The notes under the pieces: model-generated | Database searches by the model: none | What the model was told of the DNA's origin: nothing | Seen by the model: the letters and a program-made list of their open reading frames with translations, nothing else | NCBI GenBank assembly: GCA_018700895.1 | Contig: JABIUV010000049.1 | Coordinates: forward strand, 1-44,597 | Length of the DNA: 44,597 nucleotides | Direction of reading: 5' to 3' | From: Bacteroidota bacterium | Lineage (GTDB): Bacteria > Bacteroidota > Bacteroidia > NS11-12g > UBA9320 | Part shown: piece by piece, positions 15,308-19,790 of the stretch | Layout: every line of letters begins with the position of its first letter | Numbering within the stretch: position 1 is the stretch's first letter | Translations under genes and position numbers: made by a program

Positions 15308-16000
15308 TTAAGAAGATAAGCTACGACCTATTTTTACTCTCTCATACACCACATAGCAAATGCCATACATTAGGAAATAGTAGAGGTAATCTTCTATGGG
15401 AATGGTAAGAAAGCGTATGCCCAAGTTTTCGGCATTGTTATACCATACTATCGGCTCTGGGGTGAAGTAGCCAGTGAGTATGCCGTTTAAGATGCAAAAA
15501 GGGATAAGAATAATTACATAGCTCAGATAAAAAATACCGCGATCGGGCGGATTGAGTTTTATCATTATCAAGGTAAAGATGATAACAAGTACTGAGACGG
15601 TAGTAGTATATATATTCCCAAACCCTGCAATGAGATATACGGAGGCAAGTGCCACAAAAAAGTAGTCTAGGTACTTTTCTATGGGCTTTAATAAGTTCTT
15701 TACTTTAAGTATCACTAGCTGATCATACAAAAACATAAAGGCATATGGTATACAGAAGAAAAACAACCACTCTTCTAGCGGTAGATGCAGAAATGTAGGA
15801 CCGAGTAGGTATTGCTCATTAAAACCCCACACGCCTAAAACAGCAAAAAGCACATCCCATGAGATGATACAAACGCACATTACCGCTATGGAGATAAAAA
15901 GATACTTCCATCTACGGTAAAAGTGACCCAGTTTATTAAAACTGAGGATAAATGGAAAGAAGATGGCTCCGAGGTTTACCCAGAGGTATAGACTGTCCAT
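15308..16000 (-). CDS. crtY: Lycopene beta-cyclase, fused CrtY-cd type
   Basis: A 230-residue membrane protein with six to seven hydrophobic segments made of two tandem lycopene cyclase domains, the fused form of the heterodimeric CrtYc/CrtYd enzyme. Each half carries the family motif: PLEEW at 74-78 (followed by LFFF) and PIED at 201-204 (followed by YLYYF). It closes beta-ionone rings on lycopene to give beta-carotene in the membrane. Its ATG shares one base with the crtZ stop codon (TAATG), so the two are coupled, and it is the last gene of the carotenoid operon. Confidence 0.9.
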   Translation of the reverse strand: MDSLYLWVNLGAIFFPFILSFNKLGHFYRRWKYLFISIAVMCVCIISWDVLFAVLGVWGFNEQYLLGPTFLHLPLEEWLFFFCIPYAFMFLYDQLVILKVKNLLKPIEKYLDYFFVALASVYLIAGFGNIYTTTVSVLVIIFTLIMIKLNPPDRGIFYLSYVIILIPFCILNGILTGYFTPEPIVWYNNAENLGIRFLTIPIEDYLYYFLMYGICYVVYERVKIGRSLSS

Positions 16001-16455
16001 TACTTAGCTTCTTTGATATACTTAGGCGGCACTACCAGCATCCCAAAGCATTCGCCATTATCGGGGCCTAAGTGCTTATGATGCACCTTATGTGCCTTGC
16101 GTATGGCTTTTAGATACTGGTTCTTAGTACGGGTAAATATTTTGAACCGCTGATGAATAAAAATATCGTGCACCAAGAAATAAGCTAATCCATACAATGA
16201 TATGCCCACACCTACAAAAAAGAGTGGAAACATACCTGCCACAGCACTACCTAAGATGTAGCAAGCCGCACTAGGTATCGCAAATATGAGAAAGAATGCA
16301 TCATTCTTTTCCCAGAAACCGGGATCGTGCTGGTGGTGGTCCTTATGTAAATACCATAGGAAACCGTGCATTACGTATTTATGAGCAAACCAAGCTACAA
16401 ACTCCATAGCCAAGAAAGTGCCAAGCGTAATGAGTATATAAATAAGTATCATCAT
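16000..16455 (-). CDS. crtZ: Beta-carotene 3-hydroxylase
   Basis: The 151-residue di-iron membrane enzyme adds hydroxyl groups to the beta-ionone rings, turning beta-carotene into zeaxanthin. The histidine clusters of the fatty acid hydroxylase superfamily are intact: HKYVMH near 25-30, HKDHHQHD near 38-45, HDIFIHQRF near 115 and HKVHHKHLG near 137. Four hydrophobic segments are visible. It starts 6 bases after crtB ends; a second ATG one codon downstream is an equally possible start. Confidence 0.92.
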   Translation of the reverse strand: MMILIYILITLGTFLAMEFVAWFAHKYVMHGFLWYLHKDHHQHDPGFWEKNDAFFLIFAIPSAACYILGSAVAGMFPLFFVGVGISLYGLAYFLVHDIFIHQRFKIFTRTKNQYLKAIRKAHKVHHKHLGPDNGECFGMLVVPPKYIKEAK

Positions 16456-16461
16456 AAGATA

Positions 16462-17304
16462 TTATAAAAAGTATGCACCCATTGCTAGTCTAGCTTTGGA
16501 GGTAAATAGTAATCTAAACTTGGTAGAATTAGGGACTCGCAATCGTTTGGTAAATAACTCTTCAAAACTAGCATTTTCTAATTTTCTAAAAAGTTTGAAG
16601 TAATATCGATATGCAGTATACACACCATACTTGGAGTTAGCGGGTAATCTATTAATAGCTTCTAAGGCGTGTTTGAAATCCGCGGCAATATCTTTTTCTA
16701 TGGCAGCTTTGAGTTCTGGAGTCCATTCTTGCACATTCATCCCTGGGAAGTATAGACGACCAAGGTTATCTTTATCTGCCTTGAGATCGCGTAGAAAGTT
16801 TACCTTTTGGAACGCAGACCCTAAACTCATTGCTCCATCTTTTAGACTCTCATATTGCATATTGTCACCATTGCAAAATACACGTAGACACATCAAGCCT
16901 ACTACTTGAGCACTGCCGAGTATGTATTTTTCGAAAGTAGCTTGATCGTATGTCTGCTCCTCTAGGTCCATCTCCATACTATCAAAGAAAGCATCTATCA
17001 ACCATTGGTCTATCTTATAGTAATTTACCGCGTGCTGAAAACTATTGAGGATAGGGTTTAAGCTTATATTATGCTCAATGGCCTCTACAGTTTGTTTACG
17101 AAAATCTGTAATTAAGGCTTCTTTGTCGTAGCCTTCAAAAGAATCTACAATTTCGTCAGCAAAGCGTACAAATCCGTAAATAGCGTACACCGGTTCGCGT
17201 ACAGATTCGTGTAACATTCTGATGCCTAGCGAAAAGGAGGTGCTGTAGGCATTAGTTACCATTTTACTAGCCTTTAGAGATACGGTATCAAATAATGCTT
17301 TCAT
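16462..17304 (-). CDS. crtB: Phytoene synthase
   Basis: A 280-residue squalene/phytoene synthase that joins two geranylgeranyl diphosphates head to head. The two aspartate motifs that bind Mg-diphosphate are present: DEIVD at 50-54 and DLKAD at 173-177, the latter followed by NLGRLYFP. YAIYGFVRFAD just before the first motif is typical. Its start overlaps the end of crtI by 17 bases. No GGPP synthase (crtE) lies in the window. Confidence 0.94.
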   Translation of the reverse strand: MKALFDTVSLKASKMVTNAYSTSFSLGIRMLHESVREPVYAIYGFVRFADEIVDSFEGYDKEALITDFRKQTVEAIEHNISLNPILNSFQHAVNYYKIDQWLIDAFFDSMEMDLEEQTYDQATFEKYILGSAQVVGLMCLRVFCNGDNMQYESLKDGAMSLGSAFQKVNFLRDLKADKDNLGRLYFPGMNVQEWTPELKAAIEKDIAADFKHALEAINRLPANSKYGVYTAYRYYFKLFRKLENASFEELFTKRLRVPNSTKFRLLFTSKARLAMGAYFL

Positions 17305-18769
17305 GGGTGTTTTGTTCTTGTGTGATAAGGTGTGAAACTATTTTGCCAGAGATTATGCTTGGCGGCACGCCCGGACCAGGCACCGTAAGTTGTCCTATGT
17401 AGTAGAGGTTATCTACCTTCTTGTTTTTGCACTTGGGTTTTAAGATGGCGGTTTGCTTGAGCGTATTGGCCAAGCCGTATGCATTTCCTTTGAAACTATT
17501 ATACTCTCCCACAAAATCAGAATGAGCAAAGCTCTCGTATACTTCTATGTGAGGCCGTATATCGTGACCGGTGTGTTTTTGTAGTCTATCGCATATCATA
17601 CTAAAGTAGCGTTCCTTGGTTGCTTCGTCATCTTTTAACTCGGTAGATACTGGCACTAAAAAAAATAAATTTTCCTTTCCGTCAGGTGCTACAGTAGTAT
17701 CTGTTTTGCTCGGGTTACAAATATAGAACAATGGAGCTTTGGGCCACTGATGTGTGTCGTATATTTCTACTGCGTGGTGATCAAAACTTTCGTCGAAAAA
17801 GAGATTGTGGTGTTTTATACCATCTAGCTGCTTATTAAGCCCAACGTAATACAATAAACTACTTGGAGCCATTGTACGCTTGTCCCAGTACTTTTGGTCG
17901 TAATTGCGGTACTCCGGTGCGAGGAGTTTTTGCTCGGTATGGTGATAATCGGCACCACTCACTACCACGTCTGCGGTATGGAGCTCTCCATCTACTTGTA
18001 TTCCTACGGCAGCCCTGCCAGTGGTTACTATTTCGGTTACGTTAGCGTTGGTATGAAAGGTTACACCTTGCTCTTTAGCTACCGATACCATAGCTTCTAC
18101 AATTTTGTTCATACCACCCATCGGATACCATGTACCTAAAGCCATATCGGCATAATTCATCAGGCTATACAGCGAGGGTGTATTTTGTGGCTTAGCACCC
18201 AAAAATAGGACAGGAAACTCCAAGAGTTCTATTAACTTAGGATGTGTGAAAAACTGGCGAATGTGTTTACTTATGGGTTTAAATAAATCGAGCGAAAGGC
18301 CTTTGCGAGCAGTATCTATACTCAAAAACTCGGTGAAGGAGAGTGAAGGCTTGGTGACAAAATCGCCCATACCTACCTCATACTTCATTTTGGCTTCAGT
18401 TAAAAATTGTTCTAATTTTTTACCTGAGCCTTTTTCATAAGACTCGAAATAAGCCTTGAGCTCTGTCATAGATGCTGGAATGTCATCTGGTGCATCTGGC
18501 CAAAACACTCTGTAGCTTGGGTCTATTCTTCGTAGGTCGTAAAAATCGCTTACTTTTTTACCAAAATCAGCAAAGAAATCTTCGAACACATCGGGCATCC
18601 AGTACCAACTTGGCCCCATGTCAAAGGTGAAGCCATCTATTTCTTTGGTGCGTGCTCTACCGCCTAATGTGCTGTTTTTTTCAAAAACGTGCACTTCGTG
18701 ACCTTGTTGGGCCAAATAGCAAGCATTTGATAATGAGGAAAACCCCGATCCGATTATTGAAACTTTCAC
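17288..18769 (-). CDS. crtI: Phytoene desaturase
   Basis: The 493-residue FAD enzyme introduces the double bonds that turn phytoene into lycopene. The dinucleotide fold opens VSIIGSGFSSLSNACYL (3-19), with Ser where most relatives have Gly in the loop. GRARTKEIDGFTFDMGPSWYWMPDVFE near 42-64 and the C-terminal PGPGVPPSIISGK FAD motif near 462-474 are family hallmarks. It is the first gene of the crtI-crtB-crtZ-crtY run, starting 51 bases after the MerR gene ends; that gap contains repeats described separately. Confidence 0.95.
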   Translation of the reverse strand: MKVSIIGSGFSSLSNACYLAQQGHEVHVFEKNSTLGGRARTKEIDGFTFDMGPSWYWMPDVFEDFFADFGKKVSDFYDLRRIDPSYRVFWPDAPDDIPASMTELKAYFESYEKGSGKKLEQFLTEAKMKYEVGMGDFVTKPSLSFTEFLSIDTARKGLSLDLFKPISKHIRQFFTHPKLIELLEFPVLFLGAKPQNTPSLYSLMNYADMALGTWYPMGGMNKIVEAMVSVAKEQGVTFHTNANVTEIVTTGRAAVGIQVDGELHTADVVVSGADYHHTEQKLLAPEYRNYDQKYWDKRTMAPSSLLYYVGLNKQLDGIKHHNLFFDESFDHHAVEIYDTHQWPKAPLFYICNPSKTDTTVAPDGKENLFFLVPVSTELKDDEATKERYFSMICDRLQKHTGHDIRPHIEVYESFAHSDFVGEYNSFKGNAYGLANTLKQTAILKPKCKNKKVDNLYYIGQLTVPGPGVPPSIISGKIVSHLITQEQNTHESII

Positions 18770-18820: not shown

Positions 18821-19696
18821 TTACAAAAGGTTTTTTAAGTCTTCTATTTTACGTAAAAAATGAAAGTTTTTGGTACTTAGCTGATAACCGATATCCTCAG
18901 TTATGCCGTGTATCATTACCCGTTGAGGACCGAATGTTTCGGCCATTTGCTTAGTATATTTTTCAAATACTTCAATGTTACGTTGAATGGTAAATGCACA
19001 CAGTACCGTGGTAGCATTGGCATTGGCACAACACTCGCCTACATCATTAAGTGGCACACTAGGGCCGAGGTATACACACTCGTGTCCTGCTTTTTTGATG
19101 AGGTAGTAGGAGTATAACAAACCTATCTCGTGGTCTTCATTCTCAGGTAGGTATAATACAAATCGCTCTTCGCTCTTGACCATAGGCAGTCTATCTATCG
19201 CTGCAAATAGTTTTTGTCTAACCATCTGGCTTGCGAAGTGCTCTTGTGCAGGGTTGAGCTTACTTACACTCCACATTAGGCCTATACGCACAAGTAGCGG
19301 TGATATAATATCTTCTACACACTGCTCTAAGGTGTATTTGCTAGCATAAGAACGATACGTGTTTTCGAAGGCCACAACATCACACATTAGCGTAGCGACG
19401 ATAAGGTCATTGATGATAATCTTACGGGCAGAGTCTAAATTCTCTTGCTGTAAAAGCTCTATCTCATGATTGAGTTCTTCGGAAGTTAAGGAACTTACCT
19501 TGCTGATTTTCATCCCGTGGTCTAAGACGGAGGCAATATTTAAAAGCTTCTTTAAATCATCATTACTGTACAAGCGTATGTTAGTTTCCGTACGATCGGG
19601 ATCGAAAATTGCGTGACGCTTTTCCCACATCCTTATGGTATGGGCTTTTATGCCACTCAGATTTTCTAAATCTTTTATACTTAAACCTTTATTCAT
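18821..19696 (-). CDS. MerR regulator with cobalamin-binding domain (CarH/LitR type)
   Basis: Residues 1-70 are a MerR winged helix (SIKDLENLSGIKAHTIRMWEKRH near 6-28). Residues about 85-165 form the four-helix cobalamin cap and 178-291 a B12-binding Rossmann domain. The CarH photoreceptor signature is complete: W142, nine residues, E152-H153, then E187-x-H189, H189 matching the lower axial ligand. In this family adenosylcobalamin holds a DNA-bound tetramer in the dark, and light splits the Co-C bond and releases the promoter. The residue after W142 is Ser; as I recall, Thermus CarH has a His there that caps cobalt after light. The gene heads the carotenoid cluster, so light-induced carotenoid synthesis is inferred. 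Confidence 0.88.
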   Translation of the reverse strand: MNKGLSIKDLENLSGIKAHTIRMWEKRHAIFDPDRTETNIRLYSNDDLKKLLNIASVLDHGMKISKVSSLTSEELNHEIELLQQENLDSARKIIINDLIVATLMCDVVAFENTYRSYASKYTLEQCVEDIISPLLVRIGLMWSVSKLNPAQEHFASQMVRQKLFAAIDRLPMVKSEERFVLYLPENEDHEIGLLYSYYLIKKAGHECVYLGPSVPLNDVGECCANANATTVLCAFTIQRNIEVFEKYTKQMAETFGPQRVMIHGITEDIGYQLSTKNFHFLRKIEDLKNLL

Positions 19697-19756
19697 GTAT
19701 GTACAATATTATTGCTAAGTGTATAAAACATAAAAGCTGAAATTGTTTTAAAACAA

Positions 19757-19790
19757 AAAAGCGGAGTGGCAAATTTGCCACTCCGCTTTT
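19757..19790 (-). terminator. Terminator between the LTxxQ protein gene and merR
   Basis: AAAAGCGGAGTGGCAAA and its exact complement form a perfect 34-base palindrome; on the minus strand it is followed by further T. It ends transcripts coming from the gene at 19820-20515 and isolates the merR-crt unit. Confidence 0.85.

Follow-up and report, generated by a model that had tools for sequence, protein, structure and literature searches.

A CarH/LitR-like gene at the head of a carotenoid operon

The window, that is, the whole stretch of 44,597 nucleotides analysed here, comes from a marine member of the Bacteroidota and carries a gene for a CarH/LitR-like MerR regulator (hereafter litR) that is followed on the same, minus strand by crtI, crtB, crtZ and crtY (Table 1). 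A sequence-only reading of this DNA had given the correct limits of litR, leaving its strand unstated, and had placed it directly before the crt genes, a position and order that we also find. litR and crtI are 51 bp apart, and the remaining crt genes have ends that overlap or leave 6-bp gaps. Since a terminator-like hairpin appears to close the preceding gene, litR is probably transcribed from a promoter of its own as the first gene of the operon. An Rfam search over the window matched a tRNA only, and hence no riboswitch, and a plasmid origin of the operon was considered and rejected as no DNA match was found. As to the pigment, zeaxanthin, proposed in the earlier reading, is plausible as a product, but CrtI scores 732.5 bits, above the cut-off of 640 for NCBIfam NF058655 (CrtID, bifunctional phytoene/3,4-desaturase), and the encoded enzymes may perhaps make more than zeaxanthin alone.

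Table 1. Features of the litR-crt locus, with positions in the window.
Feature	Position	Strand	Basis or remark
litR, CarH/LitR-like MerR regulator, 291 aa	18821..19696	-	ORF; Pfam MerR_1 and B12-binding_2; best PDB match Thermus CarH; AlphaFold2 model and fold match
MerR winged-helix DNA-binding domain, residues 6-71, with R22xWEKR27	19484..19681	-	Pfam PF13411; invariant residues
Four-helix B12-binding_2 subdomain, residues 96-163	19208..19411	-	Pfam PF02607 and conservation
W142	19271-19273	-	in four-helix subdomain
S143	19268-19270	-	in four-helix subdomain
E152-H153	19238-19243	-	in four-helix subdomain
Rossmann cobalamin subdomain, residues 175-291	18824..19174	-	AlphaFold2 secondary structure and alignments
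Cobalt-ligand motif E187-D-H189	19130-19138	-	in Rossmann subdomain; alignments
crtI, phytoene desaturase	17288..18769	-	Pfam; NCBIfam NF058655
crtB, phytoene synthase	16462..17304	-	PF00494, 5e-41
crtZ-like beta-carotene hydroxylase	16000..16455	-	PF04116, 1.2e-12, and position in operon
crtY-type lycopene cyclase, CarR domain	15308..16000	-	PF18916; TIGR03462
Inverted repeat AAAACAATTTCAGCTTTTATGTTTTA, predicted operator	19724..19749	-	28-53 bp before litR start; gap 13
Terminator-like hairpin GCGGAGTGGC-AAATTT-GCCACTCCGC with T run	19755..19786	-	read from sequence; ends upstream gene

Four congeneric genomes (G004, G001, G012 and G018; loci L018, L019, L020 and L021) present a different arrangement, with litR still between an arginase-like gene and rpoD, the crt operon absent from this locus and another crtI-crtB cluster, 57-58% identical, elsewhere in the genome. 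They are a natural uncoupling of the sensor from its target.

LitR matches CarH in sequence and fold

In Pfam searches LitR of the window matched MerR_1 (7.6e-14) and B12-binding_2 (1.1e-6) but not PF02310, which was matched by 33 of the 67 members of the LitR family. The closest solved sequences in the PDB are those of Thermus CarH (E ~3e-19 with the protein alone, 4e-27 with a family profile), and together with the Pfam domains and the motif conservation described below they put the MerR/B12 identity proposed earlier well above chance. An AlphaFold2 model computed from this LitR and 66 relatives (mean pLDDT 93.8) retrieved full-length CarH as its top-ranked match in Foldseek, and VIA-align superposed it on the CarH cobalamin domain with a Z of 21.7 (2.2 Å over 194 residues) and on the photocobilin and CtMerR domains with a Z of ~20 (range 18-20). 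CarH, with whose structures the sequence-only reading had proposed a comparison, is thus the best match over the full length by both sequence and fold. The AppA SCHIC domain and AerR also match this fold, at Z ~16, so that fold alone is no proof of cobalamin binding.

Thermus thermophilus CarH (PDB 5C8D/5C8E/5C8F and 3WHP) and LitR share the MerR DNA-binding domain and the four-helix and Rossmann parts of the cobalamin-binding domain over their full length, the Wx9EH motif, the E-x-H ligand and the proximity of carotenoid genes, at an identity of 22-24% in structural alignments. Unlike LitR, Thermus CarH has a His after the Trp and an operator of tandem 11-bp repeats; LitR has neither and is preceded instead by a spaced dyad.

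The cobalamin-contacting residues of CarH are conserved, its bis-His ligand is not

The W142-x9-E152-H153 and E187-D188-H189 motifs and S143, on which the earlier reading was built, are all present in the litR translation. Their conservation was assessed in two sets of sequences: set one, of 70 Bacteroidota proteins, comprises that of the window and those of its genus, family, order and class, and set two consists of 80 Bacteroidota loci (L116-L195) taken from a different collection, among which four belong to the window's genus. In set one W142 and H153 occur in 70/70, E152, H189 and G139 in 69/70 and E187 in 65/70; the corresponding counts in set two are 80/80 for Trp, E187 and H189 and 79/80 for the Glu and the His of EH. 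Wx9EH is present in 149 of the 152 rows of the two alignments, both of which include the window protein, and R22, W24, E25 and R27 of the DNA-binding domain are invariant across the 150 relatives. The position after the Trp behaves differently, with a His in just 1/70 sequences of set one and 0/80 of set two. These counts indicate that the adenosyl- and cobalt-contacting residues of CarH have been kept in the Bacteroidota proteins and its bis-His ligand has not. One relative (L073, in G103:C311) has the Glu of EH replaced by Val and the cobalt-ligand His by Asn, a possible natural loss of cofactor binding judging from its sequence.

Ser143 itself had been singled out as unusual, a view that we have abandoned. 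In set one, position 143 comes 198th when the 291 positions are ordered by conservation, and Q, T, L, S and V are among its residues; in proteobacterial relatives the Trp is followed by E, R or A; and three AdoCbl photoreceptors that were tested lack the His, with Arg in CtMerR, Gln in SasPcob and Tyr in AbDPcob (PMC11796333). Given this variability and these non-His precedents, Ser143 is ordinary for the family. The light state is nevertheless likely to differ from that of Thermus CarH in not being bis-His ligated: with no His after W142, it would probably be an aquo/hydroxo-cobalamin or a Glu-linked form, and in CtMerR a water-mediated Glu contact with cobalt does replace bis-His ligation (PMC11796333). 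By analogy with the H132A variant of TtCarH, which was mostly tetrameric in the light in one study and dissociated in an earlier one (PMC10442372), the missing His could weaken the LitR switch. CtMerR (Chloracidobacterium, 8JBS/8JBT), SasPcob and AbDPcob share the fold of the cobalamin-binding domain with LitR, although their domain context is another, and the Gly of the published GxxH signature is N186 in LitR.

LitR departs from characterised CarH in the classic B12 motif and the dimer pair

Measured against the classic B12 motif, D/ExHx2G/P-x41-SxT/V-x22-27-GG (PMC9304148), LitR keeps ExHx2G, the x41 spacing, T236 and an x26 spacing, and has A234 in place of the Ser and H263-G264 in place of GG; the motif is somewhat over-strict as a test, since CarH of T. 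brockianus (SxL) also deviates from it. Almost all Bacteroidota relatives have S, T, H, A or L at the first Gly of GG, whereas Thermus and proteobacterial relatives retain both the Ser and GG. The CarH equivalog NF052513 of NCBIfam is by far the best family for LitR, yet the score, 103.7 bits, falls well below its cut-off of 400. The SignatureFinder signature of light-responsive cobalamin-binding domains consists of GxxW, EH, GxxH and GxxxP (PMC11796333), and LitR has three of these four elements, namely G139xxW142, E152H153 and G211xxxP215, with N186 for the Gly of GxxH. In place of Arg176 and Asp201, which form a pair in the CarH dimer (PMC10442372), LitR has D188 and S213, and Arg/Asp is not among the commonest combinations at this pair in the Bacteroidota alignment. 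In a phylogenetic tree with few outgroups, all 146 Bacteroidota sequences fall into one long-branched clade (support 0.84). LitR has the MerR DNA-binding domain, the B12-binding_2 subdomain and the Rossmann fold of the CarH/LitR-like MerR superfamily and belongs to their common clade; as it departs from the full B12 motif, the NCBIfam cut-off and the CarH type of operator, we assign it to a variant of this superfamily that forms a distinct Bacteroidota clade.

These departures bear on whether cobalamin is bound at all. LitR could be a B12-independent crt regulator, as CarA of Myxococcus became, in which the fold was kept and the signal is another one (a partner protein, redox or heme). The loss of the classic Ser and GG, the absence of a PF02310 match and the presence of AppA SCHIC among the structure matches are compatible with this, as are a congener that retains litR with no detected PduO (see below) and a relative on plasmid pPP1 of Persicobacter psychrovividus (L231:3001-3870) that has neither EH nor the cobalt-ligand His. 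However, CarA, which is B12-independent, lost the Trp of Wx9EH (PMC9304148), whereas W142 is present in LitR and the W/E/H/H residues are conserved almost absolutely in 150 relatives. CarA of Myxococcus xanthus thus has the MerR and cobalamin-binding domains and the control of crt genes in common with LitR, which alone of the two has kept the Trp, and we regard a B12-independent LitR as unlikely. The Persicobacter relative, with a His after its Trp, looks from its sequence like an independent, CarA-like and cobalamin-blind branch. Bizionia MliR was considered as a characterised ortholog and rejected, being devoid of an effector domain.

A spaced dyad is predicted as the operator

The inverted repeat upstream of litR in the window is the sole match there to the pattern AAACA-n-TGT(T/A), one of two in the genome, and is common to two congeners (L006 and L007); its gap of 13 is not the modal one. 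Over the family the consensus is the inverted repeat TTAAACAAT-n-TTGTTTA (TAAACAA-n-TTGTTTA), with gaps that peak sharply at 15 and 16, lengths seen respectively in 11 and 9 loci of set one and in 19 and 8 of set two. The pattern was chosen by inspecting the litR promoters of set one, so its occurrence in 28/70 of them, against a shuffled mean of 2.4, is not a test. With the pattern fixed, it was found in set two in 25 of the 76 litR promoters outside the genus (shuffled mean 2.2, maximum 7) and in 15 of 398 other promoters at the set-two loci (Fisher p 2e-12), a significance that is overstated by the non-independence of the relatives and a possible overlap in species between the two sets, though to a limited extent because both sets span many families. 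Of those 15, four are the litR dyad counted again from a divergently transcribed gene, and another three lie before the gene next downstream of litR. About one in three relatives thus carries the spaced dyad ahead of litR, ~10x background, and LitR of the window would occupy its copy of it. Tandem 11-bp TnnACA repeats were found in 0/150 Bacteroidota litR promoters by a search that did detect them at the carH genes of T. thermophilus and T. brockianus. A TGAACA/TAAACA pair 11 bp apart between litR and crtI of the window was rejected as a tandem repeat, as it is not kept in congeners. A wider regulon defined by the exact dyad was also discarded, given one other site in the genome and counts in the genus close to those of a reversed-pattern control, and neither the photolyase/cryptochrome cluster found in the window's genome nor the crt clusters that have moved in the congeners showed a convincing dyad.

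Co-occurrence with carotenoid genes, the sigma-factor neighbour and cofactor supply

In set two, crtI or crtB lies at ≤6 kb from litR in 47/80 loci. Among 147 genomes, 109 have both litR and phytoene synthase, 8 litR only, 6 the synthase only and 24 neither; with one genome per family the corresponding numbers are 18/1/3/17, i.e. 18/19 versus 3/20 (p 4e-7). This co-occurrence holds even when the two genes are unlinked.

The genome encodes methionine synthase (MetH), acyl-CoA mutases and the cobalamin adenosyltransferase PduO, and a CobA-type adenosyltransferase was not found in it. No cobalamin-synthesis gene was identified in the annotated part of the window, and scavenging of the cofactor, put forward in the sequence-only reading, is reasonable given PduO, methionine synthase and the mutases. 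PduO is nearly universal, which makes its co-occurrence with litR uninformative as a test of B12 dependence. One near-complete congener genome (99%; G011, L011/L113) has litR, MetH and the mutases, and no PduO was detected in it. In a genome that encodes PduO and further AdoCbl-dependent enzymes, the same pocket would also serve a sensor of AdoCbl supply, which would repress when AdoCbl-bound and derepress when the cofactor is lacking, its loss in the light being incidental. Yet the target is an operon for a photoprotective pigment, and co-occurrence tracks the carotenoid synthase, while PduO does not separate genomes with litR from those without; we give supply sensing very little probability.

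LitS, the partner of LitR in Streptomyces, is an ECF sigma factor. Streptomyces LitR works with LitS and in the light promotes litS transcription (PMC12705666), and the sign of regulation in the window, repression in our reading, is on this account tentative. An ECF sigma gene, identified from sequence rather than by a family search, lies beside litR in 53/80 set-two loci, directly downstream in 47, an arrangement that resembles LitR-LitS. LitR could accordingly be a light-dependent activator, instead of or besides a dark repressor, as Streptomyces LitR is at the litS promoter. But the operon of the window's genus lacks a sigma gene, also between litR and crtI, and the dyad is placed where it could allow promoter occlusion, so that activation appears quite improbable. 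At three loci (L127, L165 and L179) a copy of the dyad also stands before the gene that directly follows litR, whose product of 169-170 aa has the size of that ECF sigma factor.

LitR as a probable AdoCbl-dependent dark repressor

We consider it probable that LitR is an AdoCbl-dependent dark repressor of its own operon, of the CarH/LitR kind, that is released by light. In the dark, AdoCbl would be held between the four-helix bundle, where W142/E152/H153 would face the adenosyl group, and the Rossmann domain, where H189 would be the cobalt ligand, and would maintain LitR in a DNA-binding assembly on the inverted repeat ahead of litR, thereby shutting off litR-crtI-crtB-crtZ-crtY. Light would break the Co-C bond, the assembly would loosen and the promoter would be freed for carotenoids to be made. 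AdoCbl binding, the light response, repression and dyad binding are all predicted here from CarH and the anatomy of the protein and locus. The CarH/LitR-type control of the crt genes by light that the sequence-only reading proposed is the best-supported account, in view of motif, fold, operon, co-occurrence, AdoCbl-making capacity and dyad, with the significance attached to Ser143 removed from it. Against it weigh the replacement of Ser and GG by A234 and H263, the missing PF02310 match, the low equivalog score, TtCarH H132A in the light, the congener with no detected PduO and the AppA SCHIC fold, and also Chryseobacterium lacus. This member of the Bacteroidota makes zeaxanthin in the light only and has the same four kinds of crt genes, which are induced by light (PMC7064467); since its authors found no car/lit operon, light-induced zeaxanthin, though documented there, supports the physiology and not the regulator.

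MerR genes at Bacteroidota crt clusters have often been annotated (e.g. PMC5887021, PMC11855829), and we found no paper with a laboratory test of any member of this branch. The type of sensor is known; what is new is that the predicted DNA site, parts of the cobalamin pocket and the dimer pair of the branch differ from those studied. More tentatively, LitR may represent a photoreceptor-repressor found phylum-wide in Bacteroidota, with a spaced dyad, another dimer interface, a changed nucleotide-tail pocket (possibly for other corrinoids) and no bis-His state. If these readings are right, these common aquatic bacteria would use vitamin B12 as a light meter and a large set of photoreceptors would switch without a bis-His state. 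The predicted dyad offers an immediate way to test them. The window's own genome also has a light-related cluster (L096, G000:C25:28000-43000) of photolyase/cryptochrome-type genes and an SDR gene, in which three ORFs match the photolyase FAD domain.
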